Positions 2 through 18,574 of a DNA stretch of 24,469 bases are shown here, piece by piece. Both the position numbers and the translations under genes were made by a program. Numbering within the stretch: position 1 is the first letter of the stretch; each line of letters starts with the position of its first letter. The notes beneath the pieces are model-generated. The model worked only from the letters and a program-made list of their open reading frames with translations, searched no databases and was not told where the DNA came from. This stretch comes from a virus, in IMG/VR virus record IMGVR_UViG_3300035698_020428, positions 1 through 24,469 of that record; one strand, 5' to 3'.

Positions 2-565
2 AGTGCAGAATTTGTAGACAATAAAAACCTGCGTAAAGAGATTGGAAATCTCAATAAGTGTGGAGTTCTTTTTGATGCTGAAAAGAAACCGTACACAATC
101 AAATCTGTAGGACTTAAAAGAGTAGATCTAATTGAGCTGTTTCTTAAAGGGGTTGAGAGTGTACCTGAAGATCATGAAGATGCTAAAAAAATTCCTGAGT
201 CTGTTATTATTTTTTATAATGACATTGTAAACGGAGTAGATCCGAGTCCAGAAGAAATTGCTGAGATTCGTAAGAAAAAAGCTCCAAAAGTAAAAAAAGA
301 TAGAGGTCCTAATTTTGAACAGAGAGCATATGATATGATCAAAAGCATGGCTGGTAAGACTAAAGAAGAGATTGTGGCCGCAGGACTTGCTATGTATACA
401 GATTTGTATGCTAAAAAGGATCCGCCTAAGACAGATGCAGTTTTTATCGCTAAACGTAATAACATTTATATTGATATTGCTGAGAAGAAGATCAAAAAAG
501 AATCTACTCCTGTAGAGGAAACTCCTGTAGAAGAAGCTCCTGTAAAAGAAAAGAAAGGTAAGTAA
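2..565 (+). CDS. Partial conserved phage protein with charged, repeat-bearing tail (5' end outside window)
   Basis: The reading frame is open from the first bases of the window to the TAA at 563-565, giving 187 residues without the true N-terminus. An internal ATG at 335 exists but the frame upstream has the same character, so I treat this as one truncated gene. The visible part is hydrophilic. Its middle is Lys/Pro rich (around KKKAPKVKKDRG) and the tail carries imperfect short repeats of the type PVEE/TPVEE/APVKE before ending in KKGK, which looks disordered. It ends one base before the folE ATG, so the two are probably co-transcribed. I do not recognise the family and assign no function. 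Confidence 0.75.
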   Translation, partial: SAEFVDNKNLRKEIGNLNKCGVLFDAEKKPYTIKSVGLKRVDLIELFLKGVESVPEDHEDAKKIPESVIIFYNDIVNGVDPSPEEIAEIRKKKAPKVKKDRGPNFEQRAYDMIKSMAGKTKEEIVAAGLAMYTDLYAKKDPPKTDAVFIAKRNNIYIDIAEKKIKKESTPVEETPVEEAPVKEKKGK

Positions 566-566
566 T

Positions 567-1145
567 ATGGATCAAAGTCTTGTAAAAAAAGAATTCTCAA
601 GGCTACTAGTCGATGGGTTGGGGTTAAATTTAAATGACCCCAACCTACTTGACACTCCTAAAAGAGTAGCTAAAATGTATTGTCAGGAACTCTTAAAAAA
701 TATAGGAAAAGAATTTAATGAGTTTAAAGAGTTTCCCAATAGTCAAAAGTATGACCAAATAGTAATGTCAGATCGTATATCTTTTGTTTCAATGTGTTCA
801 CATCATTTCCTCCCATTTTCTGGGGAAGCATGGGTAGCTTATATACCAGATGTAAAACTTACAGGATTATCTAAATTAGCAAGATGTGTGGAACATTATT
901 CTGCTAAACCTCAACTACAAGAGAATTTATGTCAAGAAGTAATTAAAAGAATAGATACAATTCTTAAACCTCAAGGCACATTTGTGTTTATGAGAGCTAT
1001 ACATAATTGTGTACGATGTCGTGGTGTAAAACAATCTAATTCAGGAATGATAACAAGTTCAGTATCTGGAGTTTTTAAAACTAATCAGCATCTGGAAGAA
1101 AAAGCTCTAGCAATGATCCAGATATCTTTAAAATCTACATTATAA
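567..1145 (+). CDS. folE: GTP cyclohydrolase I (FolE)
   Basis: FolE converts GTP to 7,8-dihydroneopterin triphosphate in the cytoplasm. This is the entry step to folate and also to 7-deazaguanines (preQ0, queuosine). At 192 aa it is close to the catalytic core length of the family. The zinc site is visible as C77 and H80 in MCSHHFLPF plus C148 in CVRCRG. Other hallmarks are GLSKLARCVEHYSAKPQLQE (the GLSKL...RPQLQE family block) and the tail MITSSVSGVF. The ATG at 567 has an AAAGG site about 8 bases upstream. The next gene is a QueD-like protein and a DpdA-like transglycosylase lies in the same cassette, so a role in DNA 7-deazaguanine modification is more likely than folate supply. A GC-rich hairpin lies within its early codons. 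Confidence 0.95.
   Translation: MDQSLVKKEFSRLLVDGLGLNLNDPNLLDTPKRVAKMYCQELLKNIGKEFNEFKEFPNSQKYDQIVMSDRISFVSMCSHHFLPFSGEAWVAYIPDVKLTGLSKLARCVEHYSAKPQLQENLCQEVIKRIDTILKPQGTFVFMRAIHNCVRCRGVKQSNSGMITSSVSGVFKTNQHLEEKALAMIQISLKSTL
616..645 (+). other. GC-rich hairpin inside the start of folE
   Basis: A perfect 9-bp inverted repeat, GGTTGGGGT at 616-624 and ACCCCAACC at 637-645, has a 12-base A/T loop. It begins 49 bases after the folE start codon. In a gene this AT-rich such a stem is conspicuous and would be stable in the mRNA. No T-run follows, so it is not an intrinsic terminator. A role in mRNA stability or translation is possible but unproven. Confidence 0.5.
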
Positions 1146-1172
1146 TTTCAATTCAACTATAAGAGGTGCTTT

Positions 1173-1508
1173 ATGACGAATATTATTCTAAATACACAGT
1201 TCTCGGCAATTCATTGTTGGTCTGACTGTGGTATACCTGAGATGAAATATCTTAAACATCCTCATAGGCATGTATTCCATATACGTATGAAATGGGAAGT
1301 AAATCACGATAATAGAGATATAGAATTTATACAACAAAAAGAAAAAGTAGAACATTATATACGGGAACAATGGTTAAATAAAAATTTAGGTCAAATGTCT
1401 TGTGAGAGTATAGCTAAAACATTTGGAGTATATTGGAAAGCAGATTATGTACGTTGTATGGAGGATAATGAAAATGGAGCAGAATGGATGAAAGAGGAGG
1501 AAAAATGA
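1173..1508 (+). CDS. QueD / 6-pyruvoyltetrahydropterin synthase-like protein, divergent
   Basis: QueD turns the FolE product into 6-carboxytetrahydropterin, the second step to preQ0. This 111-aa protein shows the family layout: FSAIH near residue 10 (first zinc His), HPHRHVFHI near residue 30 (in place of HGHxY), MSCESIA (equivalent of PTxEN/A) and a final Glu region CMEDNENGAEW. The canonical catalytic Cys just before the HGH motif is not present there; the nearest Cys is further upstream (DCGIPEM). The chemistry may therefore differ, or another residue may serve. It follows folE by 27 bases with an AGAGG site and overlaps the radical SAM start by 4 bases (ATGA), so the three genes form a translationally coupled unit. 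Family assignment is by motif only; moderately sure. Confidence 0.7.
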   Translation: MTNIILNTQFSAIHCWSDCGIPEMKYLKHPHRHVFHIRMKWEVNHDNRDIEFIQQKEKVEHYIREQWLNKNLGQMSCESIAKTFGVYWKADYVRCMEDNENGAEWMKEEEK

Positions 1509-2860
1509 AATATGATAGTATTATAATTGATCCAGCATCTACAGAGTTTAATAGGGGAAGTTTTTGTTATTTGCCTTATATATTCTACTCTGCATGTAAA
1601 CAAGGAAAAGAAAATGTAAAAATTCTTGAAAACTTCACAATCGCAGAAATAGATAACTTACCAGAAGCGGATAATTACTATATTGCACTCTGGTCATATC
1701 CGCAAATCGAAGCTTGCAAAGTATTAAATCGTTTTATTAAAGGAAATGTACATTTTTTCGGGTACTACGGTCTTATTGACGAATTAAATTTACCTAAAAT
1801 AGTAATAGGAGACAGCTTAATTAAAAAAGGCATTATGGATTATCCTTATTACTTTGAAGACTTTAAGTATCTATTGTTAAGTGATTGTGATATGCATTTG
1901 AAAAAATATCAAGGTCAAGTCTATCCTTTCTGTACTACATACGGGTGTCCTAATGGATGTACATTCTGTCCTTCTACTATTAATTGTAATAAAACAAGAG
2001 TTGTTCCTGATGGTAAAGAAGTTATTAAAAGTTTAGAGTATATGGATTCTGAAAATATAAGATGTATACATTTTACAGATGAAGATTTCTTTTGGAATAC
2101 AGATAGAACATGTGAAATATTAAGTTGGTTTGATGATTGTAATAAATGTAATGATAAAGACGACCAATATCAACTTATTGCTATGGGTCATATAGGAACA
2201 GTTCTTAAATTTGTAGAAAAATATGGAATAAGGCCTTTAGAGAGGGCAGGAGTAAAATTAATAGAAGTTGGATTTGAAACAGCAGATGAAAAATTAGCTA
2301 AAGATATGGGTAAAGTATCTGTGGAAAAATATGAAAAGTTAGCTAAAACATTCAAACACTCTAAAGTAAACATTTTTTGGCTTACTTTAACTTTCTTTCC
2401 TGGTGAAACATTAAATACTTTAAATAAAACAGGGGAATTTCTTAAAGTAAACGGTTATAAATTAGAAGAGCTATATGGCAGAATACAAACAAATAGTACA
2501 GAAGGAGGATTAGGCCAATTCTTTCAGTGGTACCCGGGTACTAGAGGATTTGAAAAAAGAAGAGTATTTGGAAAGGTTCTAGATGAAAGACCAGTTAGAC
2601 TGTTACCTTCTTATATACCTGATTCTTTCTTATATGATAAAATTAAATCTGTAAAAGAAATATCTACATTAGATTATAAATGGTTTGAACTTTACAATTT
2701 ACCCAAAAGTTTATGCAAATTTACTAATCCTAAGGAGTTTGATAAATGTACTATAATTGAAGCAGTAGAGTATCTATATTTGGTTAAACGCTGTACTAAA
2801 GAAGAAGGGTATACTTTCTTTGCCATAGCGGCTCGTCTAGGAATAATTACTAGTCGTTAG
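1505..2860 (+). CDS. Radical SAM enzyme with B12-binding-like N-terminal region
   Basis: Radical SAM enzymes use a [4Fe-4S] cluster to cleave S-adenosylmethionine and start radical chemistry. The cluster motif is C148-x3-C152-x2-C155 within GCPNGCTFC. Other family blocks are IHFTDEDFFWN (the strand after the cluster), IEVGFETADEKLA (the G-ES-like block) and LTFFPGETLNTLNKT (the GlPGET-like block). About 145 residues precede the cluster, as in cobalamin-binding radical SAM proteins, but I see no DxHxxG cobalamin ligand motif. At 451 aa it is about twice the length of QueE. The start at 1505 is preferred over 1484 because GAGGAGG sits just upstream. It is coupled to the QueD-like gene, so it may act on a pterin, a deazaguanine or the modified DNA base. 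It could replace QueE or tailor the base; neither can be shown from sequence. Confidence 0.85.
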   Translation: MKYDSIIIDPASTEFNRGSFCYLPYIFYSACKQGKENVKILENFTIAEIDNLPEADNYYIALWSYPQIEACKVLNRFIKGNVHFFGYYGLIDELNLPKIVIGDSLIKKGIMDYPYYFEDFKYLLLSDCDMHLKKYQGQVYPFCTTYGCPNGCTFCPSTINCNKTRVVPDGKEVIKSLEYMDSENIRCIHFTDEDFFWNTDRTCEILSWFDDCNKCNDKDDQYQLIAMGHIGTVLKFVEKYGIRPLERAGVKLIEVGFETADEKLAKDMGKVSVEKYEKLAKTFKHSKVNIFWLTLTFFPGETLNTLNKTGEFLKVNGYKLEELYGRIQTNSTEGGLGQFFQWYPGTRGFEKRRVFGKVLDERPVRLLPSYIPDSFLYDKIKSVKEISTLDYKWFELYNLPKSLCKFTNPKEFDKCTIIEAVEYLYLVKRCTKEEGYTFFAIAARLGIITSR

Positions 2861-2866
2861 CTATGT

Positions 2867-2905
2867 ATAGCTACTACATAGTTCCTTGCTTAAAACGCAG
2901 AATTC
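2867..2905 (+). repeat. 39-bp intergenic repeat, copy A, leading into a 16-bp palindrome
   Basis: This 39-base stretch matches 12883-12921 at 37 of 39 positions; the differences are at repeat positions 11 and 13. Both copies are intergenic. Copy A runs into a perfect 16-bp palindrome ACGCAGAATTCTGCGT at 2895-2910; copy B stops after the first half plus the centre. Function is unknown. A regulatory protein site, promoter part or RNA leader are possible readings. Confidence 0.8.
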
Positions 2906-2967
2906 TGCGTCTAATTAGCAAAATATTTTTAAGTCAATAGTATAATAACAGTTGAAAGGAGTTTAAA

Positions 2968-3228
2968 ATGGAAAAAATTATAGGTATTTCAGCAAAAGAG
3001 CTTTTAGAACAACCAAAAACACCGTCTACGGTCAAAATCGAAAATGAGGAGTTTGTAATTATCGATGAAGGGTACAGTTTTGAAACCTCTAGATGTAATG
3101 ACCCCTTCAAATTGGTAGTTTGGATTGGTCATCTAACAGAGAAAAATTGGTGTACTACTGAAATGATATCTGATCTAATAGATGAATTTTGTAAAGAATA
3201 TAAATATGATAGAAATTGGAACTGCTAA
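2968..3228 (+). CDS. Hypothetical 86-aa protein in the modification cassette
   Basis: This small acidic protein lies downstream of the 39-bp repeat. A good GGAG site lies 7 to 8 bases before the ATG. There is no signal peptide or membrane segment. Four Cys/Trp-rich stretches stand out in the second half (RCNDPF, VVWIGH, NWCTTEM, NWNC). Its stop lies 8 bases before the ATG of the glycosyltransferase, and its last bases supply part of that gene's AAAGGAGG site. I do not recognise the family. Position suggests a helper to the modification enzymes, but nothing in the protein shows this. Confidence 0.7.
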   Translation: MEKIIGISAKELLEQPKTPSTVKIENEEFVIIDEGYSFETSRCNDPFKLVVWIGHLTEKNWCTTEMISDLIDEFCKEYKYDRNWNC

Positions 3229-3238
3229 AGGAGGTAGT

Positions 3239-4267
3239 ATGAAAATTATTAATGTACCAATAGAGCCTTTGGAAGAGAGATACTCTGCACAATGGGATAC
3301 TTGGTTTTGTAACCATTTAGCTGTGGACATAATAGATTATGATAATGTATACGGTAGAAAGTATGAAGGCATAAAAGACGGTTCTTTTTTAGATGTTGTC
3401 CAAACAAATATTTACAAGGCTACTCAACTTAGAAAAATCTGTAAAATATTAACCAAAAAGGAGTTTCAAACAAACAGTGCTCAAGATGTAGTTGTATTTT
3501 TTCAAGATATTTGGTTTCCAGGACTTGAAATGTTAGCATACATTAGAGATGGCATAGGACTCAAATTTAAAATCTGTGGATGCCTTCATGCTGGTACATA
3601 TGACCCTAATGATTTTTTAGCTAAACAGGGGATGGGTAAATGGGGTGAAAAATTAGAGGAGAGTTGGTTTGAAATAGTAGATGCTATTTTTGTAGCTACA
3701 GAGTATCATAGAGATTTAATAAAACAAAGAAGAAAAATTGCTCCTCATAAAATACATGTTACTGGATTTCCTATATATGCAGATGAAATAGATCATACAA
3801 AAGGTATTAAAAAAGAGAATATAATAGTATTTCCTCATAGACTAGATGAGGAAAAGAGACCTGACTTGTTTGGTAGACTTAAGGAAGAATGTAAATGTAT
3901 GAAAGAATTTAAAGGGTGGGTGTGGCTTAAATCTAAAGATGCCTGTAGAAATAAAAAAGAGTATTATGAATTATTGGCTAGATCCAAAATAGCTATATCA
4001 TTTGCAGAGCAAGAGACGTGGGGAATTGCGATGCAGGAGGCTGTATTTAATGGATGTTATCCTATAGTTCCTGATAAGCTTAGTTACTCTAAAATGTATG
4101 AACGATGTTTTCGATATAATGATTGGAAAGAATTATTATTAACATTAGAATTATGTATGAAAACTAGTTACACCCCTCATAAAGAGTTTGATAGAAATAA
4201 GAAATATTTATCTGATAAAGGTAAACAAGCTATACCTAACATGATTAATATTATGAAACTGTTGTAA
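3239..4267 (+). CDS. GT-B glycosyltransferase, resembling queuosine mannosyltransferase (QTMAN/GTDC1) in its C-terminal half
   Basis: At 342 aa, a retaining GT-B enzyme would transfer a sugar from an NDP-sugar. The C-terminal half has VFPHRLDEEKRPDLF followed by the E-x7-E type donor site AEQETWGIAMQEAVFNGCYP and LSYSKMY. This order, with PHR-DEEK and GCYPxxPxxLxY, is what I recall from the GT domain of the tRNA-queuosine mannosyltransferase family. The N-terminal half has FQDIWFPGLE, CLHAGTYDPNDF and VDAIFVATEYHRDLI, typical of an acceptor domain. The start at 3239 is chosen over 3182 because of an AAAGGAGG site just upstream. Placed between a radical SAM enzyme and a DpdA-like gene, it may glycosylate a modified DNA base; alternatives are another phage DNA base or a host surface sugar. 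Confidence 0.82.
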   Translation: MKIINVPIEPLEERYSAQWDTWFCNHLAVDIIDYDNVYGRKYEGIKDGSFLDVVQTNIYKATQLRKICKILTKKEFQTNSAQDVVVFFQDIWFPGLEMLAYIRDGIGLKFKICGCLHAGTYDPNDFLAKQGMGKWGEKLEESWFEIVDAIFVATEYHRDLIKQRRKIAPHKIHVTGFPIYADEIDHTKGIKKENIIVFPHRLDEEKRPDLFGRLKEECKCMKEFKGWVWLKSKDACRNKKEYYELLARSKIAISFAEQETWGIAMQEAVFNGCYPIVPDKLSYSKMYERCFRYNDWKELLLTLELCMKTSYTPHKEFDRNKKYLSDKGKQAIPNMINIMKLL

Positions 4268-4285
4268 ATATCTTACAAAAATACA

Positions 4286-4302
4286 GAACATATGTTATAA
4301 TA
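4286..4302 (+). promoter_or_regulatory. Extended -10 promoter with ACATATGT palindrome, copy 1
   Basis: The element GAACATATGTTATAATA holds the palindrome ACATATGT and an extended -10 (TGT then TATAAT at 4296-4301). A weak TTACAA lies 17 bases upstream as a possible -35. It stands 32 bases before the small CxxC gene at 4334. The surrounding 44 bases (from 4277) are nearly identical to those of copy 4 (from 18507). Confidence 0.75.
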
Positions 4303-4333
4303 TATTATAAAAGTAAATAAATGAGGCAATATT

Positions 4334-4576
4334 ATGAAATGTTCGATCTGTAGAAGAGAACGTAGTGCTATATATCTAGATGAAGTAGTAAAAGATATTA
4401 GTTATGAATTGGATTTAGACCCCGAAACTGTTACAACAAAAGTGAGATATTGTAATGACTCAGATAGTTGTAAATCTAAACTCAATGCTTTTGTATTTTT
4501 TACTAAAGAAACTGTAAGAAGAGCATCCAAAGGAATAGTGCCCTCGACGAGGGTAGCTAGGAGGGTAGGTGTATAA
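4334..4576 (+). CDS. Small CxxC protein, possibly zinc-binding
   Basis: This 80-aa protein begins MKCSICRRERSAIYLDE and has a second Cys pair in YCNDSDSCKSK near residue 45, so four Cys could hold one zinc ion. The tail is basic and ends in RRVGV. It is the first gene after promoter copy 1 and has a GAGG site 7 to 8 bases before the ATG. A homing endonuclease with its own promoter follows. I do not recognise a named family; DNA or RNA binding would be plausible for a basic small zinc protein but is not shown. Confidence 0.7.
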   Translation: MKCSICRRERSAIYLDEVVKDISYELDLDPETVTTKVRYCNDSDSCKSKLNAFVFFTKETVRRASKGIVPSTRVARRVGV

Positions 4577-4583
4577 TTTATAG

Positions 4584-4612
4584 TTGACAAAGTACCTTAG
4601 ATGTGCTACACT
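4584..4612 (+). promoter_or_regulatory. Sigma-70-type promoter for the homing endonuclease
   Basis: A perfect TTGACA (4584-4589) is separated by 17 bases from TACACT (4607-4612). A TGC directly before the -10 box gives an extended -10. It is the only canonical two-box promoter I found in the window, and it lies 35 bases before the HNH gene start. Confidence 0.75.
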
Positions 4613-4646
4613 TCTTATGACTATTAATTAAAATAAGGAGTATGAT

Positions 4647-5123
4647 ATGGAAGAAATATGGAAAGATATACCTAAATTTGAAGGATATTATCAAGCTAGT
4701 AATTTAGGAAGAGTTAAAAGTTTTTGGAAAAGCGGAAGGATACTTAAACAAAGAGTTAATCCAACAACTGGATATGTTCAAGTATCTTTACATAAGAATA
4801 AAAAATCATATCATAGAAGTACACATGTTTTAATTGGGCTAACATTTTTAGGACCTAGACCAACAGGATATGAAATTAATCATAAAGATTTTAATAAAGA
4901 AAATAATTTTTCAGATAATTTAGAATATTTAACACCAGAACAAAATGTATTGTCTAGTTCAAAAGCAGGTAAATGTAGAAAAAAATTAACGGAAAAAGAT
5001 GTATTAGAAATTAGAGCAAATAAAGATACAGTTCATTGTTTTATTCTAGCTAAAAAATTTAATTGTTCTGAAGGTAACATTAGACATATACAAACAAGGA
5101 AATGTTATAAATGGGTAAAATAG
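4647..5123 (+). CDS. HNH homing endonuclease (NUMOD4-HNH)
   Basis: At 158 aa, this free-standing homing endonuclease would cut DNA in relatives lacking the gene and so spread. Residues 3-25 (EIWKDIPKFEGYYQASNLGR) are a NUMOD4 motif. Residues about 70-105 are an HNH core (YEINHKDFNKENNFSDNLEY then LTPEQNV), with the His, Asn and Asn positions in place. The C-terminus (KLTEKDVLEIRANK, then CSEGNIRHI) looks like a helix-turn-helix DNA-binding module. An AAGGAG site lies 7 to 8 bases before the ATG. It has its own promoter and interrupts the modification cassette between a small CxxC gene and the DpdA-like gene, which fits a recent, independently expressed selfish insertion. Confidence 0.9.
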   Translation: MEEIWKDIPKFEGYYQASNLGRVKSFWKSGRILKQRVNPTTGYVQVSLHKNKKSYHRSTHVLIGLTFLGPRPTGYEINHKDFNKENNFSDNLEYLTPEQNVLSSSKAGKCRKKLTEKDVLEIRANKDTVHCFILAKKFNCSEGNIRHIQTRKCYKWVK

Positions 5124-5138
5124 AAAGTAAGGCTAAGT

Positions 5139-6125
5139 ATGCGAAAAGACGTTAAAATTTTCTTAGATTCGGGCTCTCCCAGTTTGTATAATAAATTAAT
5201 GCGACAAAATAAAGATGCTGGACATATGGGTAGTTTTTTAGGAGAAAGAAAACATGATGATTATTCTTTTCTTAAAACAGACGATTATAGATTATATAGA
5301 GATAATTACATTGCTTTCATTAAAGAACATATGGAAGATTTAGAAGTATATGCTAATTTTGATGTAATTAATAACGCAGAAGAAACTTGGGTTAATCAAA
5401 TGTATATGGAAGAATCTGGTCTTAATCCTTTACCTGTCTTTCATTTAGGTTCAGATATTAAATGGTTAAAAATGTATATGGATAAAGGATACGATTATAT
5501 TGCACTAGGCGGCCTTATTCCAAATCCACCTAGTATATTAATTCCTGCTTTAGATAAAATATGGAGTGAAATATTTACAGATAAATACGGAATGCCTTTA
5601 GTAAAGGTTCATGGATTTGCTGTAACTTCTGTAAAATTAGTAAATCGATGGCCGTGGTTTTCCGTTGATAGTACCAGTTGGGTTAAGTTCGGAAGATATG
5701 GAGTAATCTGTGTTCCTAAAAAAATAAATGGTAAATATGACTACACAGTAAACGCCTGGACGGTGGCGGTCTCTGCTAGAAGTCCTTCTAATAAAGAAAC
5801 AGGCAAACATTTTGATACTTTTGCTCCTGCAGAACAGAAAATAATATTAAATTATATCGAATCTAAAGGACTTAAATTAGGTAAATCGGAAATATTTAAA
5901 ACAGATAAAGAGTATGAACCTGCTGAAAATGAAAAGAAGTTTTCATCTGACGATCCTAATGTAGTAATGTATGAAAGAATTATAGAAGAAGGTATATGTA
6001 ATAATTATAAATTAAGAGACGAATTAAATATAATGTATTATTTAGATTTAGAAGCTTCCATACCCGAATGGCCTTGGGCTTTTAAAGTTGAGAATGAAAC
6101 TAAAAAATTCAAGTTATTTAAATAG
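5139..6125 (+). CDS. dpdA: DpdA-like DNA 7-deazaguanine transglycosylase
   Basis: DpdA enzymes are related to tRNA-guanine transglycosylases and exchange guanine in DNA for a 7-deazaguanine such as preQ0. This makes phage DNA resistant to many restriction enzymes. At 328 aa it shows the phage DpdA signature: FLDSG at residues 8-12 (first catalytic Asp region), YANFDVINNAEETWVNQ at about 71-87, LPVFHLG, DYIALGG, KVHGFAVTS and WPWFSVDSTSW (second Asp, D177) followed by GRYGVI. The AAGG site lies about 6 bases before the ATG. With folE and a QueD-like gene in the same cassette this is the insertion step of a DNA hypermodification pathway. QueE, QueC and any amide- or nitrile-processing gene were not seen here; they may lie outside the window or come from the host. 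Confidence 0.88.
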   Translation: MRKDVKIFLDSGSPSLYNKLMRQNKDAGHMGSFLGERKHDDYSFLKTDDYRLYRDNYIAFIKEHMEDLEVYANFDVINNAEETWVNQMYMEESGLNPLPVFHLGSDIKWLKMYMDKGYDYIALGGLIPNPPSILIPALDKIWSEIFTDKYGMPLVKVHGFAVTSVKLVNRWPWFSVDSTSWVKFGRYGVICVPKKINGKYDYTVNAWTVAVSARSPSNKETGKHFDTFAPAEQKIILNYIESKGLKLGKSEIFKTDKEYEPAENEKKFSSDDPNVVMYERIIEEGICNNYKLRDELNIMYYLDLEASIPEWPWAFKVENETKKFKLFK

Positions 6126-7359: not shown

Positions 7360-8379
7360 ATGAAAATTGATAGAGTAGAATTATTAAATGCATTAAATAG
7401 AGTAAAACCTGGAATTGCAAAGAAGGGCATAATTGAACAGTTCACCCACTTCATATTTACCGGAAAGGAAATTACTACATATAATGACGATATTTGTATT
7501 ACACATCCTTTTGAAACAGAATTTAGATGCTCTGTAAAAGCTGAAGATTTGTATAAAGTAATATCTGGTATTACTAATGATTTAATTAAAATGGAATTGG
7601 AAAATGGAAAATTATTAATTAAAACAGATAAAACAAGAGCAGGATTAGCTACTACAACTGAGGGTGATGCTGAAGAACATATAAAACTCCTTGATTTACC
7701 TTCTTTGAAATGGGAAAAACTGCCTTCTGATTTCATAAAAGGTTTATTTCTTTGTATGTTCTCAGCATCCTCAGATATGACACAAGGAGTTCTAACTTGT
7801 GTTCATGTAAATGGCAATAAAATTAATTCTGCTGAAGAAGTACGTATAAGTGAATATATAATGGAAGAAGGTATTAAAGGGGAAGTTTTAATACCCGCAC
7901 GTAATATAGTAGATCTTGTTTCTTTTGATGTTACTGAAGGATGTTTTACAGATAATTGGGCACATTTTAGAACTAAAGAAGGATTAATTTTCAGTAGTAG
8001 AGTAATGATTGGTGATTATCCTAATAATTTAGATGAAAATTTTTCTGTAGAAGGAGAGGAGATAAAACTACCTAAAGAGTTTAAAGAAGTAATTGAAGAT
8101 ATGACTTTTATGACGGATGGTAATATTGATATGGATAAAGTTATTTCTTTAAAAGCAAAGGATAAAAAGATACTTGCAAGAGCTGAAAAACAAACAGGGT
8201 GGATTGAAAAAGAAACTGCTTTTGAATTTGATCATGAATTAGAAATAGAAATTAATCCTTCTTTTTTAGTACAAATACTGGAGAAAGCTACTTCTTTAGT
8301 AACAGATAACAAAAAAGCATTATTTGTATCTGGTAATTTTAAACATGTAATAATGTTACCTGGGGATGATAATGAGTAA
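7360..8379 (+). CDS. DNA polymerase sliding clamp (DnaN/beta-like)
   Basis: The beta clamp is a ring that holds the polymerase on DNA. This 339-aa protein is slightly shorter than bacterial DnaN (about 366 aa). It shows the family pattern: LLNALNRVKPGI at the start, TYNDDICITHPF at about residue 40, VKAEDLYKVISGI at about 58, then ELENGKLLIKTDKTRAGL, and a second domain with YIMEEGIKGEVLIPARNIVDLV. The last part has a beta-strand end VSGNFKHVIMLPGDD. It stands right behind promoter copy 2 with an AAAGGA site, ahead of the polymerase and in the same region as the clamp loader. The stop overlaps the next start by 8 bases. Assignment is by pattern; fairly sure. Confidence 0.82.
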   Translation: MKIDRVELLNALNRVKPGIAKKGIIEQFTHFIFTGKEITTYNDDICITHPFETEFRCSVKAEDLYKVISGITNDLIKMELENGKLLIKTDKTRAGLATTTEGDAEEHIKLLDLPSLKWEKLPSDFIKGLFLCMFSASSDMTQGVLTCVHVNGNKINSAEEVRISEYIMEEGIKGEVLIPARNIVDLVSFDVTEGCFTDNWAHFRTKEGLIFSSRVMIGDYPNNLDENFSVEGEEIKLPKEFKEVIEDMTFMTDGNIDMDKVISLKAKDKKILARAEKQTGWIEKETAFEFDHELEIEINPSFLVQILEKATSLVTDNKKALFVSGNFKHVIMLPGDDNE

Positions 8380-8956
8380 AAATAAAGATATTAAATTAGA
8401 TTACTCTATACCCAAAGAAAAAAGTAAAGCAATAATTTTTAGTAATCCTAATTATTCTTCTAATTGGGTATACGATATGTATAAAGAGGAAGCTGAAAGA
8501 AAAGCAGATAAATTGGTATCAAATATTTTAATGAATCCTTTTTTATGTAATGGTACTTTTAGTGATGAATGGAATAATAAAAAACCGGAGAATATACTAA
8601 AGAATATTGAAGAGGGGAAAAAAATAATAAGTGAACAAATAGGGTATCATTATGAAGAATGTGGTTGGCTTAAAGGATTGGATTACAAAGGAACTTTAAA
8701 TAATAAATTAACAAAGGAGGAAAAGGTGATGATTAGTTTAAAAAAGAAAGCAGAGATATTGAATTGTAGTTATTGTGATTTTTGTATTGAGGGTGATGAT
8801 GAATTTGAAATGGATATTGAGACTGTGGAGGTGAAAGAAGCAGATATGTGTAGAAATTGTACAATGTGGGAGGCAAGAGGTTGTGTTTTGGATATTTCTA
8901 TTCTTTATAATAATATTTGTACTCTTCATAAAAGAAAAGTGGATAAAGAAAAATAA
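8372..8956 (+). CDS. Hypothetical protein with Cys-rich C-terminus
   Basis: This is a 194-aa protein. I use the ATG at 8372 because the GGGG site then lies 6 bases upstream; the ATG at 8366 would be too close. The first 125 residues are charged and helical. The C-terminal 60 residues hold ten Cys in LNCSYCDFCIEGDD, then ADMCRNCTMWEARGC and NNICTLHKRK, which likely bind zinc or an Fe-S cluster. The C-x2-C-x2-W piece recalls the Cys-Trp motif in the small CPVW proteins and in the tail of the single-strand binding protein. It overlaps the clamp gene by 8 bases and joins the next micro-ORF by TAATG. Function unknown. Confidence 0.7.
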   Translation: MSKNKDIKLDYSIPKEKSKAIIFSNPNYSSNWVYDMYKEEAERKADKLVSNILMNPFLCNGTFSDEWNNKKPENILKNIEEGKKIISEQIGYHYEECGWLKGLDYKGTLNNKLTKEEKVMISLKKKAEILNCSYCDFCIEGDDEFEMDIETVEVKEADMCRNCTMWEARGCVLDISILYNNICTLHKRKVDKEK

Positions 8957-9117
8957 TGGTGCTCTACTTTGCAGGAGTTCCTGGCGGTACTCAGATAGAA
9001 CGTGAAAAAGATTTATCTGATATAATGACTATTGACCGACTCGTATCCTTCTTTTACTTTGAACAAATGATGACCACACTTGTATACTATAAAAGGATTG
9101 ATAATGGCGAAACTTAA
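8956..9117 (+). CDS. LYxAG micro-protein, member C
   Basis: This 53-aa ORF is joined by TAATG to the preceding gene and overlaps the polymerase start by 14 bases. It begins MVLYFAGVPGGTQIER and has DRLVSFFYFEQMM later, the best match to the shared plan M-x-LY-x-AG-x-x-GG ... R-L-x-SFF-Y. There is no clear ribosome site, so translation probably depends on the upstream gene. Function unknown. Confidence 0.6.
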   Translation: MVLYFAGVPGGTQIEREKDLSDIMTIDRLVSFFYFEQMMTTLVYYKRIDNGET

Positions 9118-11785
9118 GAAGTTTTTTAATATTAAAGATATGCCTGGAAATACAGGTGTGGAAATTAAAGGTAATAAAAAAGGACCTTCGTTAGAAATAA
9201 CCCACAAAGCCGGAAATCCAGACTGCGGGTCTTGTGGGTTAAATACCCAAGATAAAATACTTATAACAGGAAATGGTAAAAAAGGAATATTATTATTATG
9301 TGAGCATCCATATAAAACAAAAGAAGGTGAAATTATAGCTTTCTTACCTTATGCACTTAAATTATTAATTAAAGTATTAAGACAAAACGGAATAGATTTA
9401 CACGAAGATTGTTGGGTAGTTCACTCCACTGCTTGTCCTCAAAAAGATAATAAACCTACTATTAAACAAAAAAGAGCTTGCAGGCCTAGGGTATTTAAAG
9501 CTATTAAAGAATTAAAGCCTAAAGCAGTTTGGATAATGGGTAGAGCAGGAATGGAATCTTTACTTGAAGGTAGACATAAAAATTTAACAGAAATAATCTG
9601 GGAAAAATTATGGATACCCGACCAATTTATAGGTGTTCCTATTATTTATATTCAAAATCCTAATTATTGCTTTAAAGTAAATAAGGATAAAAAAAGAGAA
9701 CAAGATGTTGGATTAACAAAATATTTTGAAAAGAAAGTTAAGTATGCTAAAAATTATTTACATGTTGAATTTGTAAAAAAGACTTTAGAAGAGTATAAAA
9801 AAGATATAGTTCTACTTTATGACTTTCAGAACATACTTACCCTCTTATTACATATTTTAAAAAATTCTTTTGAAATATCTTTTGATTATGAAACTACTGG
9901 AGCTAAGCCATATAAGCCTGGTCATAGAATAGAATGTATTTCTCTATGTTTTATAGAAAAAAGAGTAACTAAAGCATATTGTTTTCCATTACAAAGAGAA
10001 GGAATATGGGATGAAAAACAATTAGATCAAATTACATCTATTTGGAAAATGATATTAGAAACTCCTGAAATTAAAAAGATAGCTCATAATCTTAAATATG
10101 AAGATACTTGGAGTAGAAATATATTTGATGTTAAAATACAAGGTTGGGTTGCTTGTACTATGAATACAGCTCATATTATAGACGATAGAAAAATGTTCTG
10201 TGGACTTAAACATCAAGTATATATAAATTTTGGAATAGACGAATATGATAAGGAATTACACCATCTACTTACAACAAAAAAGAATGAGGAATTTAATAAA
10301 GTACATGAAATACCTTTACCTAAATTATTAGAGTATGGTGCTCTAGATTCATTATTTACTTTACTATTATATAAAAAACAAACCGAATATTTAAAAAGGA
10401 ATCCAGAATTAAATAAAGCAAATAGATTTTGGCTTGACGGATTACTTGCTCTATGTGAAATTCAAATTAATGGAATTGGTGCTAATGAAAAGTATTATAA
10501 TAATATGGATAAAAAATTAAATATTAGAGTAAATAGAATTGAAACACAATTACTCGAGATGGACGAAGCTTTATTGTTTAAAAAAAGTACTGGTAAAACA
10601 ATTAAAACTACCTCAGACGATAATTTATGTTACTTATTCTATAGTTTACTAAAACTTAAACCTTTAAAAGAAACAGCTGGTGGGGCTAATTCTGTAGACG
10701 CAGAATCTTTAACTTCCTTAGACAGTCCTTTTGCTGATAAATTATTAGAAAAAAAGAAATTAATCAAAACTAAAGATACATATCTTGCTCAATTCTTAAG
10801 AGAAGTATACAATGGTAAAATACATCCTAATTTTGATTTACATAGAGCTAGAACATATCGTAGTTCTAGTAGTGAGCCTAATTTTCAAAACATACCTGTA
10901 AGAGACGAAGAAGCAAAACGTATGTGTCGATCCGGAATAATTGCTTCACCAGGACATAGACTATGTGAAATAGATTATAGTTCCTTGGAAGTAAGAATAG
11001 CGGCTTGTTATACCCAAGATCCTGTACTTGTAAATTATATAATTACAGGGGGAGATATGCATACAGATCAAGCAGTTGATGTATTTAAATGTAAAAGAGA
11101 ACAAGTTAGTAAGACGATGAGATTTTATACTAAGAATGGATGGGTATTTCCTCAATTTTATGGGGCTTGGTATAAAACATGTGCTATTACTATTTGGACA
11201 GAAGTAAATAATTTATTCTTAAATGATGGAACACCTTTACTATCCCATTTGAAAAGTAAAAAAATAGGAACTTATGAATCTTTTGAACAACATTTACAAA
11301 AATGTGAAAAAGCTTTTTGGAATAGATTTAAAGTATTTAAAAAATGGCAAGAGAAAATGGTTGAAAATTATAATAAAAACGGTTACGTTGAAATGTTTTT
11401 TGGACATAGAAGAGGAGGTTTTTTATCTAAAAATGAAATACTAAATTCCTCTATACAAGGAGCAGGTTTTCATTGTTTACTGTGGACACTTACAAGATTA
11501 CAAGAAGTATGTGAAATAGAAGATTGGGATAGTAGGATAGTAGGACAAATACATGATTCTATTGTAGGAGATGTAGATCCTGTAGAGCAAAATGATTTTA
11601 CTTTTACTGCTAAACAGATAAGCTGTGTGGATATAAGAAAAGAGAATAAATGGATAATAGTACCTTTAGATATAGAAGTAGAAATGACTCCAATAAATGG
11701 AACATGGTATCAAAAAGAAGAAGTATTTGAAAAGAATGGAGTATGGAGGAATAGTAAAGGCCAAGTATATGATGAAAGCTATTAA
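9104..11785 (+). CDS. Family A DNA polymerase with N-terminal Fe-S uracil-DNA-glycosylase-like domain and 3'-5' exonuclease
   Basis: This 893-aa protein is the replicative polymerase of the phage. Residues about 20-225 look like a family 4/5 uracil-DNA glycosylase: DCGSCGL (C41, C44), ITGNGKKGILLLCEHP, HEDCWVVHSTACPQ (C111), C126 in RACRPR and AVWIMGRAG; the four Cys fit a [4Fe-4S] cluster. Residues about 250-430 are the proofreading exonuclease: FDYETTG, AHNLKYEDTW and EYGALDSLFTLLLY. The polymerase core has motif A IDYSSLEVRIA (about 623), motif B RFYTKNGWVFPQFYG, and motif C GQIHDSIVGD (about 816). I recall similar N-terminal domains in SPO1-like phage polymerases. The start at 9104 has AAAAGGA at the right distance. 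The UDG-like part may sense modified or damaged bases, or be structural. Confidence 0.93.
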   Translation: MAKLKKFFNIKDMPGNTGVEIKGNKKGPSLEITHKAGNPDCGSCGLNTQDKILITGNGKKGILLLCEHPYKTKEGEIIAFLPYALKLLIKVLRQNGIDLHEDCWVVHSTACPQKDNKPTIKQKRACRPRVFKAIKELKPKAVWIMGRAGMESLLEGRHKNLTEIIWEKLWIPDQFIGVPIIYIQNPNYCFKVNKDKKREQDVGLTKYFEKKVKYAKNYLHVEFVKKTLEEYKKDIVLLYDFQNILTLLLHILKNSFEISFDYETTGAKPYKPGHRIECISLCFIEKRVTKAYCFPLQREGIWDEKQLDQITSIWKMILETPEIKKIAHNLKYEDTWSRNIFDVKIQGWVACTMNTAHIIDDRKMFCGLKHQVYINFGIDEYDKELHHLLTTKKNEEFNKVHEIPLPKLLEYGALDSLFTLLLYKKQTEYLKRNPELNKANRFWLDGLLALCEIQINGIGANEKYYNNMDKKLNIRVNRIETQLLEMDEALLFKKSTGKTIKTTSDDNLCYLFYSLLKLKPLKETAGGANSVDAESLTSLDSPFADKLLEKKKLIKTKDTYLAQFLREVYNGKIHPNFDLHRARTYRSSSSEPNFQNIPVRDEEAKRMCRSGIIASPGHRLCEIDYSSLEVRIAACYTQDPVLVNYIITGGDMHTDQAVDVFKCKREQVSKTMRFYTKNGWVFPQFYGAWYKTCAITIWTEVNNLFLNDGTPLLSHLKSKKIGTYESFEQHLQKCEKAFWNRFKVFKKWQEKMVENYNKNGYVEMFFGHRRGGFLSKNEILNSSIQGAGFHCLLWTLTRLQEVCEIEDWDSRIVGQIHDSIVGDVDPVEQNDFTFTAKQISCVDIRKENKWIIVPLDIEVEMTPINGTWYQKEEVFEKNGVWRNSKGQVYDESY
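9199..9240 (+). other. Inverted repeat in the early polymerase gene
   Basis: AACCCACAA at 9199-9207 and TTGTGGGTT at 9232-9240 form a perfect 9-bp stem with a 24-base loop that can add a short inner CCG/CGG pair. It lies about 95 bases into the polymerase gene. It is similar in kind to hairpins in early folE and recA. It also spans the codons for the first two cluster Cys, so coding constraint may explain part of it. Confidence 0.35.
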
Positions 11786-11927
11786 AAAAAAGATTACTTT
11801 TAGAACATTTAAGAAATACTGTAAATATTATGATTCTAGATGGCAATATTGTGGTAATAAAGGTAGTAGTTCTTTCGGCAACTATTGTTTTGCTAGATAT
11901 TGTTCTGTTTGGAAAAAATTAACGTGA
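11769..11927 (+). CDS. Cys-rich micro-protein, CPVW family member C
   Basis: This 52-aa basic protein starts inside the end of the polymerase gene (17-base overlap) with an AAAGG site 8 bases before; the ATG at 11772 is an equal alternative. It contains KKITFRTFKKYCKYYDSRW and YCFARYCSVWKKL, aligning with the proteins at 6137 and 7066 over the whole length. Four Cys are conserved in order. It overlaps the following LYxAG micro-ORF by 4 bases (GTGA). Confidence 0.7.
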   Translation: MMKAIKKKITFRTFKKYCKYYDSRWQYCGNKGSSSFGNYCFARYCSVWKKLT

Positions 11928-12082
11928 AATTATACTTAGCTGGTAATACTGGGGGAGGAGAAGTAGGGAAGTATAGAGAATTAATGCTTAAAAAATTAGG
12001 GGCTTATAGATTATATTCCTTTTTTTGGGTAAGTAAAGAAGGTAGATTTTATAAAACTTTTTTAACATGGATAGGAGAATAA
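11924..12082 (+). CDS. LYxAG micro-protein, member D (GTG start)
   Basis: This 52-aa ORF starts with GTG at the GTGA junction with the Cys-rich gene. It begins MKLYLAGNTGGGEVGKYREL and has YRLYSFFWVSKEGRF, matching the members at 6312, 6908 and 8956. The LYLAG start recalls the first strand of nucleoside deoxyribosyltransferases, but the protein is far too short and lacks their other motifs. A GGAG site at its end serves the next gene. Function unknown. Confidence 0.65.
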   Translation: MKLYLAGNTGGGEVGKYRELMLKKLGAYRLYSFFWVSKEGRFYKTFLTWIGE

Positions 12083-12083
12083 G

Positions 12084-12437
12084 ATGCTTGGACAAATAGT
12101 TTTAACAGGCTCCCAAGTTTATGGTCCTGCGACTAAAGAAAGTGATATTGATATTGTATTAAATTGGATTGATGCTGAAAAATTTAAAATTTATCTTTTA
12201 AAAAAAAATATTAAGATTGAAAAGACTCAATCACAACTTGATAATATGTACCCCGGTTTTTATTTTTATCTTAATGAATTAAAATTTAATATTATCTGTG
12301 CATCAACAAATGAAGAATTAAAACAATGGAGAATAGCAACAAATAAAATGCTTGAATCGCCTCCAATTAAAAATAAAGAAAAAAGAATAAATAAATTTCA
12401 GAGATATTTTAAAAAAGGAGTAAATAATGGAAAATGA
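12084..12437 (+). CDS. Minimal nucleotidyltransferase (Pol beta superfamily)
   Basis: This 117-aa protein resembles MNT-type nucleotidyltransferases, which add nucleotides to small molecules, RNA or proteins; in bacteria they often pair with HEPN toxins. The signature is TGSQVYGPATKESDIDIVL, that is G9-S10, then D21-x-D23 as metal ligands. The strand that usually carries the third Asp reads KFNIICAS, with Asn (N69) in that place, so activity is uncertain. No HEPN gene is adjacent. A GGAGAA site lies 6 bases before the ATG. The stop overlaps the following gene by 11 bases. Superfamily assignment is fairly sure, substrate unknown. Confidence 0.75.
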   Translation: MLGQIVLTGSQVYGPATKESDIDIVLNWIDAEKFKIYLLKKNIKIEKTQSQLDNMYPGFYFYLNELKFNIICASTNEELKQWRIATNKMLESPPIKNKEKRINKFQRYFKKGVNNGK

Positions 12438-12867
12438 AGAGGAAGTAAATGCGGATGCTACAGCTAATGAAATAACATTAGGATTTAAAAATAAAAACAT
12501 AATTAGTTTAAGAAGAAACGGTGACATATTTGTAAAAGATAAATTAATTGAAAATGATTATGAAGTATACACTGGTATGAAAGAGTTTTTAGAACATTCT
12601 TTTCACTTTGCTGAGACAATGAAAGAGTTAAAAAAGAGAACAACTAATTTGGAAATAGATGAGAAGAAATTTGAGTCTATGGAAACTAGACGTACCAAAC
12701 AAAGAAAAGAAGCTATGGAGTTTTTCAAACAATATAATGATACTGTTCAGAAGAGTGTAAATGAAATTGAAAGAAAGAAGAATAAAGATCCTAAAAGAGT
12801 AGAAGAAGTAACTAAATCACTAAGAGAATTAGGTATGGGCTTAATGGAAATCTTGTCACAATATTAA
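12427..12867 (+). CDS. Hypothetical coiled-coil phage protein
   Basis: This 146-aa acidic protein has AAAAAAGGAG before the ATG. Residues about 28-50 (IISLRRNGDIFVKDKLIEND) look like the small beta-hairpin RNGDI-V-GKLIEND block I have seen in many hypothetical phage proteins. The rest, from about residue 55, is heptad-rich helix with many Lys and Glu, suggesting a coiled coil. No catalytic motif is visible. It is the last gene before the second 39-bp repeat and the clamp loader. Confidence 0.7.
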   Translation: MENEEEVNADATANEITLGFKNKNIISLRRNGDIFVKDKLIENDYEVYTGMKEFLEHSFHFAETMKELKKRTTNLEIDEKKFESMETRRTKQRKEAMEFFKQYNDTVQKSVNEIERKKNKDPKRVEEVTKSLRELGMGLMEILSQY

Positions 12868-12882
12868 TACTTAATACAATGC

Positions 12883-12921
12883 ATAGCTACTATAAAGTTC
12901 CTTGCTTAAAACGCAGAATTC
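12883..12921 (+). repeat. 39-bp intergenic repeat, copy B, upstream of the clamp loader
   Basis: Matches 2867-2905 at 37 of 39 positions. It sits 21 bases before the clamp loader ATG. After it the palindrome seen in copy A is not completed: the sequence turns to GAAGGATAG, which may serve as a distant ribosome site. The sharp end of identity at the palindrome centre is notable. Function unknown. Confidence 0.8.
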
Positions 12922-12942
12922 GAAGGATAGAAAGCTTTTATA

Positions 12943-13893
12943 ATGACAACTAACAGCATAAATCTCAGTTTAGACTTAAAATATAGACCCAAAACATTAA
13001 CTGACATGGTAGGTAATAAAAGTACAGTTGAGAGTATTCAAAGCCTATTAAATAGAAAGCAAGGACCACCTAAAAGTTTTCTTTTCATAGGCCCATCGGG
13101 CTGTGGTAAAACCACGTTTGCTATGATAATTAGGAATCTCTTAAAAGTTTCAGAACAAGACACCTTTATTTACAATACAGCTAATACAAGAGGAATAGAT
13201 ACAATTAGAAAGTTGGAAGCAACCTGTAAGTATGCCCCTATGCACGGTACTAAAAAATTCTATTTACTTGACGAGTGTCATATGCTTACAAAGGAAGCCC
13301 AAAATGCTTTACTACTTTTATTAGAAGATCCCCCAAAACATGTATATTTTGTTCTATGTACTACTAATTCTGAAAAAGTATTAGAGACTATTAAAACAAG
13401 ATGCTCCACGTACACCGTTTCTTCTTTACCTAGAAATAAAATAATGTTACTATTGAAAAAAGTAGTTAAAGAAGAAGGAATAGAACCACCATTACCTGAT
13501 AGAAATCTAAATGAAATAGCATATTGTTCTGGGGGCTCTTGTCGTAAAGCTCTTAAAATATTAGAACAAGTAATTGAAATAGCAGATGATGAGAGAGCAT
13601 TTAAGATGATACAGGATACTTCTATTGGGGAAGCTACTGTATTGGAAATATGTAAAATGCTAGTTGAACCAGGAAAAGGTAAATGGGCTGAAATGTCTAA
13701 ATTGATAAAAGGGGTAGATTCTGATACTGAGAGTATAAGGTATGCTATACTGGGTTATTTATCTGCTGTATTATTAAATAGTCCAGAAGGAAACCCTAGA
13801 ATAGCTGAAATGATGAGTATATTTGTAGAACCATGTATGTATACAGGAAAAGGAGGAATTGTACTAGAAATATATCTTGCTTGTCAACTATAA
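12943..13893 (+). CDS. Clamp loader ATPase subunit (DnaX/RFC-like)
   Basis: Clamp loaders open the sliding clamp with ATP and place it on primed DNA. This 316-aa AAA+ protein has YRPKTLTDMVGN at the N-terminus, Walker A GPSGCGKTT (residues 50-58), Walker B LLDECHML (about 108-115), sensor 1 CTTNSEKV and the arginine finger block IKTRCSTY, then a short helical C-terminal part. It is a single-subunit version; no second clamp loader gene is visible, so a homo-oligomer or a partner elsewhere is expected. The ATG at 12943 has no close ribosome site; AAGGA lies about 15 bases upstream, which is unusual here. Its end is followed by promoter copy 3. Confidence 0.92.
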   Translation: MTTNSINLSLDLKYRPKTLTDMVGNKSTVESIQSLLNRKQGPPKSFLFIGPSGCGKTTFAMIIRNLLKVSEQDTFIYNTANTRGIDTIRKLEATCKYAPMHGTKKFYLLDECHMLTKEAQNALLLLLEDPPKHVYFVLCTTNSEKVLETIKTRCSTYTVSSLPRNKIMLLLKKVVKEEGIEPPLPDRNLNEIAYCSGGSCRKALKILEQVIEIADDERAFKMIQDTSIGEATVLEICKMLVEPGKGKWAEMSKLIKGVDSDTESIRYAILGYLSAVLLNSPEGNPRIAEMMSIFVEPCMYTGKGGIVLEIYLACQL

Positions 13894-13900
13894 GAACTAA

Positions 13901-13917
13901 GAACATATGTTATAATA
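13901..13917 (+). promoter_or_regulatory. Extended -10 promoter with ACATATGT palindrome, copy 3
   Basis: GAACATATGTTATAATA, TATAAT at 13911-13916, TG one base before. It lies 8 bases after the clamp loader stop and 30 bases before the next ATG. Flanks (AGAACTAA before, ACAATTTAA and AGAAAGGA after) match those of copy 2. Confidence 0.75.
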
Positions 13918-13946
13918 GTAATATACAATTTAAAGAAAGGAAAAAA

Positions 13947-14420
13947 ATGAACGCTAAAGAAGATTTAATTATAGATGAAAATAATTTGGATCAAGGATGG
14001 ATTAAACAAGCTCATTTATATCAACAATATTCTGAAGAACTTGCGGATGCTATAAAAATTCAACAAGAAACTAAGGATGATTTAGAACTTTTAGAAGCAC
14101 AATTTTCTAAAGATATAAGAATGTTTCCGCAAAAATATGAAATAGATGTTAAAATTACAGAAAAATTAGTTGAAAGAACTATTTGGCTACAAGAAAAATA
14201 TATAGATAAAAAACAAGAAGTAGTAGAGACTAATCATAATGTGAATGTTTTAAAAGGAATATTAAGTGGGTTTGATCATAAGAAATCTGCATTAGAGAAT
14301 TTAACTAAATTATTTTTATCTCATTATTATGCAGAACCTCATATTTCAGATAGTAGTAAAGAAAAAATAGAGGAACATGATGACATGCGAAGAGCTAGTA
14401 GAGTATTTAAAGATGAATGA
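13947..14420 (+). CDS. Possible UvsY-like recombination mediator
   Basis: This is a 157-aa helical, acidic protein. The start at 13947 with AAAGGAAAAAA before it is preferred to 13833, which lies inside the clamp loader gene. It shows WIKQAHLYQQYSEELADA, then DLELLEAQFSKDIR, KITEKLVERTIW, and a late block GFDHKKSALENLTKLFLSHY. The general plan (Y/W-rich first helix, KiTEk block, then a fdhkK-aLe-L-L block) fits proteins annotated as UvsY in some phages, which help load the RecA/UvsX recombinase onto DNA coated with single-strand binding protein. It stands just upstream of the SSB and RecA genes, which suits that role. Tentative, because similarity to T4 UvsY itself is weak. Confidence 0.45.
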   Translation: MNAKEDLIIDENNLDQGWIKQAHLYQQYSEELADAIKIQQETKDDLELLEAQFSKDIRMFPQKYEIDVKITEKLVERTIWLQEKYIDKKQEVVETNHNVNVLKGILSGFDHKKSALENLTKLFLSHYYAEPHISDSSKEKIEEHDDMRRASRVFKDE

Positions 14421-14586
14421 GTTATTTATAAATTCTTTTTTAGAAGTTTTAAAAGTAGTTGCAGTTCTTATCTTGAGCTATATGGTAGTGAGGCTTGTGG
14501 CCTCAGCTATCTTCAGAAGCTATTTTGCTAATATTAATAAATTTAAGAAGAAGGAGAAAAAAAATGAGTCTAAGAGACAAAGCTAA
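14380..14586 (+). CDS. Small single-pass membrane protein
   Basis: This 68-aa protein has one hydrophobic helix at about residues 19-43 (VLKVVAVLILSYMVVRLVA is within it) and a basic tail rich in Lys. The ATG at 14380 has AGAGGA 6 bases upstream; 14377 is an alternative start. It overlaps the preceding gene by 41 bases and the SSB gene by 23 bases, a dense arrangement that supports translational coupling. A membrane protein directly before SSB and RecA is odd. Function unknown. Confidence 0.55.
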   Translation: MTCEELVEYLKMNELFINSFLEVLKVVAVLILSYMVVRLVASAIFRSYFANINKFKKKEKKNESKRQS

Positions 14587-16716: not shown

Positions 16717-16719
16717 ATT

Positions 16720-16788
16720 AATTGGGGTGGGGCGAAGGGGCTTATTGGCATTTCCTCTTCTACGGAATGAGCCCCACCCTAATTTTTT
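16720..16788 (+). terminator. Strong stem-loop with T-run between recA and the exonuclease
   Basis: A 14-bp stem, AATTGGGGTGGGGC (16720-16733) against GCCCCACCCTAATT (16771-16784), has one G-T pair. It is followed by T's at 16783-16788, the form of an intrinsic terminator. The 37-base loop holds a second option: GGGGCTTATT (16737-16746) can pair with AATGAGCCCC (16766-16775), which competes for part of the main 3' arm. That leaves room for an attenuator. It starts 3 bases after the recA stop codon and ends just before the exonuclease ribosome site. Confidence 0.75.
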
Positions 16789-16798
16789 AAGGAGTAAT

Positions 16799-18508: not shown

Positions 18509-18515
18509 AAATACA

Positions 18516-18532
18516 GGACATATGTTATAATA
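18516..18532 (+). promoter_or_regulatory. Extended -10 promoter with ACATATGT palindrome, copy 4
   Basis: GGACATATGTTATAATA, TATAAT at 18526-18531, TG one base before. It stands 8 bases after the resolvase stop and 43 bases before the next ATG. Flanks on both sides match copy 1 closely, out to the shared AAAAGTAAATAA. Confidence 0.75.
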
Positions 18533-18574
18533 TAATTATAAAAGTAAATAATTAATAACATATGAGGAGGATAA

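Follow-up and report, generated by a model that had tools for sequence, protein, structure and literature searches.

The stretch of DNA analysed here (the window) is the whole of the IMG/VR virus record IMGVR_UViG_3300035698_020428, 24,469 bases in length, which is classed as linear and is therefore probably a fragment of a phage genome. Its left part carries, on the plus strand, genes for the GTP cyclohydrolase FolE, a QueD-like protein, a radical SAM enzyme, a glycosyltransferase and a DpdA-like DNA guanine transglycosylase (Table 1). An earlier interpretation made from the letters alone (the sequence-only reading) had described these five genes as a candidate DNA modification cassette and had seen neither QueE nor QueC; the gene set was confirmed at about the positions given, and both QueE and QueC are indeed absent from the window. 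The grouping is more than chance, because some two dozen further contigs carry this cassette as well. The explanation that we consider reasonably probable is that the cassette makes a modified 7-deazaguanine without QueC and installs it in DNA, the base later being glycosylated.

Table 1. Features of the 24,469-nucleotide window, with the matches or comparisons on which each assignment rests.
Feature	Position	Strand	Basis and remarks
Conserved gene, function unassigned, 3′ part	2..565	+	Cut by contig start; synteny with relatives
FolE, GTP cyclohydrolase I	567..1145	+	PF01227, E 4e-52; phrog_2197, E 2e-55
QueD2, divergent second QueD/PTPS paralogue	1173..1508	+	phrog_17812, E 5e-21; alignment against canonical QueD
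Radical SAM enzyme	1505..2860 (open reading frame opens at 1484; start by homology)	+	PF04055, E 4e-13
Small open reading frame, 86 amino acids, between radical SAM and glycosyltransferase genes	2968..3228	+	phrog_12459 (family of unknown function), E 2e-7
GT4-like glycosyltransferase	3242..4267 (open reading frame opens at 3182; start by homology)	+	Weak GT4 models; GT-B model
Small open reading frame, 80 amino acids	4334..4576	+	Weak relative: 31% over 51 amino acids to an L009 open reading frame upstream of DpdA
NUMOD4-HNH homing endonuclease, between glycosyltransferase and DpdA	4647..5123	+	PF07463, E 2e-17; PF13392, E 8e-10
DpdA-like DNA guanine transglycosylase	5139..6125	+	phrog_887 'queuine tRNA-ribosyltransferase', E 2e-34; tblastn
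Replication and recombination genes of a tailed phage	7360..22319	+	PHROGs; context only

Viral contigs were scanned with alignments of the radical SAM enzyme, the glycosyltransferase and DpdA, and their genes were labelled with hidden Markov models (HMMs) built for this analysis. All 30 contigs found with the radical SAM alignment contain the glycosyltransferase and the QueD-like gene, hereafter QueD2, and none contains QueC. DpdA is present in 26 of them, the other four being cut by the contig end, and the glycosyltransferase also stands beside TGT-like genes elsewhere, which upholds the earlier proposal that the glycosyltransferase and the radical SAM enzyme belong to a deazaguanine cassette. 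When relatives carrying these two genes without dpdA were looked for, the radical SAM contigs lacking it proved to be the interrupted ones, and the association stood. Counting that of the window, 25 distinct cassettes were listed: 17 have the full order QueD-QueE-FolE-QueD2-radical SAM-glycosyltransferase-DpdA, six a truncated form of it, and in two the glycosyltransferase precedes the radical SAM gene. The radical SAM gene ends in ATGA in 16 of the 25, as expected for overlapping translation units, and in the window its ATG overlaps the queD2 stop codon (ATGA). A search of 84,980 species genomes with the radical SAM enzyme gave a single match, a Bacillota-binned contig that is probably a phage, since the same cassette adjoins the same replication genes; 50,697 phage records gave none.

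The truncated gene at the left end of the window is 58% identical to L028:3878-4447, and the alignment begins at residue 18 of this counterpart. In the two closest relatives, L009 and L010, queE ends about 100 nucleotides before the counterpart of this gene, folE comes after it, and a canonical QueD of the PTPS family overlaps the start of queE. In the 75-kb contig G003, queD and queE are also found just upstream of folE, with another open reading frame between. A 149-residue open reading frame of unassigned family (L026, 6586-7032) lies between queD and queE of the G003 cassette. Because the window begins inside the gene located just 3′ of queE in its closest relatives, QueE was probably cut off on the left, and the synteny indicates that both queD and queE of the window phage most likely lie just beyond that end. 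The truncated gene itself is probably outside the pathway and marks its edge. Of the FolE-QueD-QueE set leading to 7-carboxy-7-deazaguanine (CDG), FolE is thus in the window, while canonical QueD and QueE are seen in relatives alone, a short way upstream of where the window would begin.

QueD2, which the sequence-only reading had taken for a normal QueD, matches phrog_17812 and not the QueD models. In a 12-member alignment, its zinc-binding histidines H14, H31 and H33 are invariant, the C-terminal glutamate is kept and an invariant Ser-Cys-Glu is present, but the catalytic cysteine before HxH and the Asp-His pair of QueD are found in no aligned member. Both are present in the co-resident QueD of G003 and G008. 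The identification as QueD was therefore rejected in favour of a divergent paralogue that exists beside canonical QueD in relatives. The family is remotely related to the PTPS fold: its profile matches PDB 2dj6 over the full length (E 0.0045) and one of the 12 members matches the Pfam PTPS model (E 3.5e-4), the kinship of the window protein being visible only through its relatives and the PDB profile search. The alignment was too diverged to be used for the contig scan. QueD2 may be the enzyme that Cui et al. reportedly named DpdL in 2023. QueD2 also occurs without the glycosyltransferase, in phiST (L050), MA9V-3 (L047), RHph_I1_18 (L051), D479 (L049), Bakedbeans (L048) and Roos (L052); in MA9V-3, its open reading frame is fused to an endonuclease VII-like domain.

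QueC converts CDG to preQ0 (PMC13329287). The 81 contigs of the DpdA scan comprise 41 with QueC and no QueD2, 18 with QueD2 and no QueC, 22 with neither and none with both; the Fisher p of 2.5e-7 for this exclusion is inflated by shared descent, so the case is not rested on it. Over complete records, the QueC model PF06508 has no match in PA5oct, ACP17, Phosso, BUCT-ZZ01 and phiST, and no more than a sub-threshold one in X1. It has none in eight long radical SAM contigs, and QueC is missing from the radical SAM relatives G003 and G008-G017; a split match over the cut-off was obtained in another long glycosyltransferase contig, G019. Since QueC makes preQ0 from CDG and is absent here, CDG or the product of QueD2 is the likely precursor. 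The preQ0 route assumed by the sequence-only reading is consequently unsupported and was rejected, QueC being absent from long radical SAM contigs and from complete glycosyltransferase phages and never found with QueD2 in the DpdA lineage.

The window glycosyltransferase matches GT4 models at E 7e-4, which falls below the Pfam cut-off, and a pattern scan with this protein alone gave no match. Its structural model has a predicted local distance difference test (pLDDT) score of 90.9 and matches the GT-B enzymes PglA, MshA and BshA, and the family has an invariant glutamate pair spaced as EX7E; by sequence and model, it is a retaining GT-B, GT4-like enzyme. A contig scan with the family, run independently of QueD2, found 110 contigs, 104 of which contain QueD2, usually within 2 kb; five of the six exceptions have the glycosyltransferase within 400 nucleotides of the contig end. 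QueC is present in none of the 110, within the stretches examined. The pair is accompanied by QueE in the cultured phages PA5oct, ACP17, Phosso, BUCT-ZZ01 and X1, and in most of them also by a TGT-like gene and by FolE, the latter not being seen in the stretch of PA5oct examined; hosts of cultured phages with the pair are Pseudomonas, Acidovorax, Xanthomonas, Sinorhizobium and Synechococcus. Unrelated large phages also have the family next to TGT-like genes: such a gene, drawn from three lineages, is present in 117 of 132 glycosyltransferase loci, and of the remaining 15, full flanks are found only in Phosso (L044) and L154. In the Synechococcus phage BUCT-ZZ01 (L045), the cassette also has a gene annotated as xanthine-guanine phosphoribosyltransferase and another GT4-like glycosyltransferase, unrelated to the first, at 3447-3908 and 5364-6707. 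Weak glycosyltransferase-like matches beside weak QueC matches in two DpdA contigs (L203 at 8030, L213 at 6553) possibly represent another type of decorated deazaguanine.

The window DpdA shares about 33% identity with the DpdA of phage 9g (tblastn) and conserves the DSG, NLD, HGF and VDST motifs. In it, DSGSP replaces DSGAF/Y, with a longer loop behind. For the most part, though not always, the residue after DSG(A/S) goes with the cassette type: DpdAs of the QueC type read DSGA[F/Y], nearly all of those in radical SAM cassettes read D[S/C]G[A/S]P and have about 29 extra residues before NLD, and those with the glycosyltransferase and QueD2 without the radical SAM enzyme mostly read DSGAH. In tRNA TGT, the aromatic residue after DSGG stacks on the base, and the variation in DpdA hints that a different base may be handled. 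Nested among the radical SAM-type DpdAs, L215 and L219 share the long loop with them, yet belong to QueC cassettes and have a phenylalanine after DSGA, and may represent a natural reversal or an intermediate. Besides the window DpdA family, the TGT-like lineages at glycosyltransferase loci are phrog_10773, whose member in X1 is annotated as queuine tRNA-ribosyltransferase, and one unnamed family, 50 of whose 53 members read DSGG[Y/F]Q, that aligns to phrog_10773 with 97% probability. By profile and motif, both are TGT-like, putative transglycosylases. The TGT model PF01702 found no match over the whole records and is uninformative, as it missed the window DpdA too; no PDB sequence matched the DpdA profile either.

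The radical SAM enzyme has the cluster motif CxxxCxxC and, in its AlphaFold model (pLDDT 90.1), a Rossmann-like N-terminal domain followed by the radical SAM core. Its fold matches AprD4 first, then TsrM, MgmA and CysS. AprD4 is a diol dehydratase whose structure was solved with paromamine, an aminoglycoside; it also ranks first by sequence (PDB profile, E 2.5e-9), at an identity of about 12-14%. An AprD4/TsrM/CysS-like enzyme is hence predicted, although the B12-binding Pfam model matched none of 22 family members. Because it occurs only with the glycosyltransferase, action on the attached sugar is the natural guess, the alternative being methylation of the base as in TsrM. QueE, a radical SAM core enzyme of about 220-240 amino acids, was rejected as an identity for this protein, which is about 450 amino acids long, has an extra N-terminal domain and stands in cassettes that have a separate QueE.

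The 86-residue open reading frame upstream of the glycosyltransferase is missing from compact cassettes such as L004 and is probably an insertion. HNH homing endonucleases have been inserted repeatedly in or near the cassette, as in the window (4647-5123), in L009 (1799-2233, 6968-7444 and 8118-8612) and in L010; the compact L004 form has none. The downstream replication genes encode a clamp, polymerase I, clamp loader, single-stranded DNA-binding protein, UvsX, exonuclease, RuvC, ligase and an SbcC-like protein. In the polymerase (9080-11785), the N-terminal part before the exonuclease region resembles, by eye, a domain of the uracil-DNA-glycosylase type, and in several relatives the polymerase is split across two open reading frames. 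Four small cysteine-rich proteins (6137-6325, 7042-7299, 11697-11927 and 17643-17906) share a similar cysteine spacing and a C-x-x-W end and, judged by eye, resemble scattered paralogues. The open reading frame at 23310-23915 contains many six-residue tandem units, such as CSELHD and CSGLQN.

The forms of 7-deazaguanine known in DNA are preQ0, preQ1, archaeosine and the carboxy type. Cui et al. are said to have described, in 2023, both dCDG and dDG in phages, DpdL as a predicted decarboxylase of CDG, and additional subfamilies of DpdA, to one of which, we presume, phrog_10773 or the unnamed TGT-like proteins may belong. To our knowledge, that work includes neither a glycosylated deazaguanine nor a deazaguanine glycosyltransferase. 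Our literature search found no paper that connects deazaguanine of phage DNA with a glycosyltransferase, and a paper on phage Paride does not mention deazaguanine. Glucosylated hydroxymethylcytosine in T4 is similar in being a sugar-bearing phage DNA base that serves as camouflage, but differs in its base and pathway; the T4 enzymes belong to a different family from the GT4-like one, whereas the present enzyme is predicted to be a GT4-like retaining GT-B glycosyltransferase and is tied to deazaguanine genes. Animal tRNAs contain galactosyl- and mannosyl-queuosine, with the sugar on the cyclopentenediol of queuosine. They share with the proposed base a sugar on a 7-deazaguanine, but in tRNA and not in DNA; neither QueA nor QueG was noticed in the present cassette.

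DpdA-dependent 7-deazaguanine DNA has been described in phages 9g (dG+) and CAjan (dPreQ0) (Hutinet et al. 2019, PMC6884629). These systems likewise combine the FolE-QueD-QueE pathway and DpdA in one cluster, but the present cassette differs by QueD2, the glycosyltransferase, the radical SAM enzyme and the altered DpdA motif, with QueC or an amidotransferase unseen. Tubercidin biosynthesis provides a precedent for a CDG-based, QueC-less route to a 7-deazapurine, although its product is a free nucleoside antibiotic, its decarboxylase is of the UbiD family and no DpdA is involved (PMC6112128). A recent precedent for a carboxyl handle that is installed in phage DNA and then elaborated is carboxymethylcytosine (PMC12783734).

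From the genes, their order and co-occurrence, the absence of QueC and the predicted folds, we infer the chemical steps and their order, the sugar, the acceptor atom and the biological role as follows. FolE, QueD and QueE would produce CDG, which QueD2, replacing QueC, would process, perhaps by decarboxylation. DpdA would exchange guanine in finished DNA for the resulting base, to which the GT4-like glycosyltransferase would add a sugar, most likely once the base is in DNA. In the window lineage, the AprD4/TsrM-like enzyme may tailor the product by removal of a sugar hydroxyl or by methylation. A base of this bulk would protect phage DNA against restriction and against other defences that target DNA. 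The sequence-only reading's idea that the DNA contains a glycosylated deazaguanine is strengthened by the comparative evidence, and the relatives examined do not contradict it, while the preQ0 route and normal QueD that it assumed are not supported. More tentatively, guanines may be replaced by a 7-deazaguanine with a sugar at or near C7, as a C-glycoside or a carboxyl glycosyl ester, deoxygenated or methylated by the viral radical SAM enzyme in the window lineage, and the glycosyltransferase-QueD2 pair may define a second branch of deazaguanine DNA chemistry that is widespread among large and jumbo phages and runs alongside the QueC one.

Several observations weigh against this explanation. 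A decarboxylated C7 offers no oxygen or nitrogen as sugar acceptor; therefore QueD2 acts otherwise, or the product is a carboxyl ester or a C-glycoside, or another atom is the acceptor. Neither an AprD3-type partner reductase nor a sugar-nucleotide gene was noticed in the cassette. The change in the DpdA motif is not universal: L220 has a glycosyltransferase-QueD2 cassette yet keeps the tyrosine, and the TGT-like family of most large-phage glycosyltransferase cassettes retains DSGG[F/Y]Q. The DpdA tree holds about three switches of cassette type and two to three independent pairs, hence phylogenetic independence is low. In addition, Phosso and L154 have the glycosyltransferase and QueD2 without a recognisable TGT-like gene nearby, and HMM profiles applied to Phosso detected no transglycosylase near its cassette.

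It is also conceivable, if rather unlikely, that the DNA contains an undecorated base, 7-carboxy- or C7-unsubstituted 7-deazaguanine, while the glycosyltransferase and the radical SAM enzyme serve virion proteins or host surface sugars and travel along by chance or through shared regulation. The presence of QueD2 without the glycosyltransferase in phiST and the others listed above implies that QueD2 alone can complete a pathway, and Xanthomonas phage PhiXhv-15 has a weakly related glycosyltransferase among other sugar genes; both fit this explanation. It is harder to reconcile with the close linkage of glycosyltransferase and QueD2 in 104 of 110 contigs over three TGT-like lineages, and with a radical SAM enzyme that is never seen without the two.

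Slightly less likely still is that decoration precedes insertion, the glycosyltransferase and the radical SAM enzyme acting on free CDG or deazaguanine and DpdA inserting the finished base through a reshaped pocket. The known substrates of DpdA are free bases (PMC6884629), and the proline, valine or histidine of DpdA in radical SAM cassettes, where the QueC type has phenylalanine or tyrosine, would suit such a pocket, as would the longer loop; the occurrence of phenylalanine together with QueC in L215 and L219, despite their long loop, points the same way. However, most large-phage TGT-like proteins keep the aromatic residue, the independent switches are few, and sugars known to be added to DNA, as in T4, are added after replication on DNA itself (PMC13216743). 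A role of the cassette in host tRNA queuosine or folate metabolism, with no DNA modification, seems very improbable. FolE and QueD-like genes do serve folate and queuosine synthesis as well (PMC6884629), but this DpdA is of the phage DNA-type family and not a tRNA TGT, QueC, which queuosine needs, is absent, and the cassette is embedded among replication genes.

If the proposed explanation is true, a QueC-free branch with a glycosylated base would unite base replacement and glycosylation, the two main strategies of DNA camouflage. It would also assign roles to a phage glycosyltransferase that is common but has no name, to a QueD paralogue and to a virus-specific radical SAM family.

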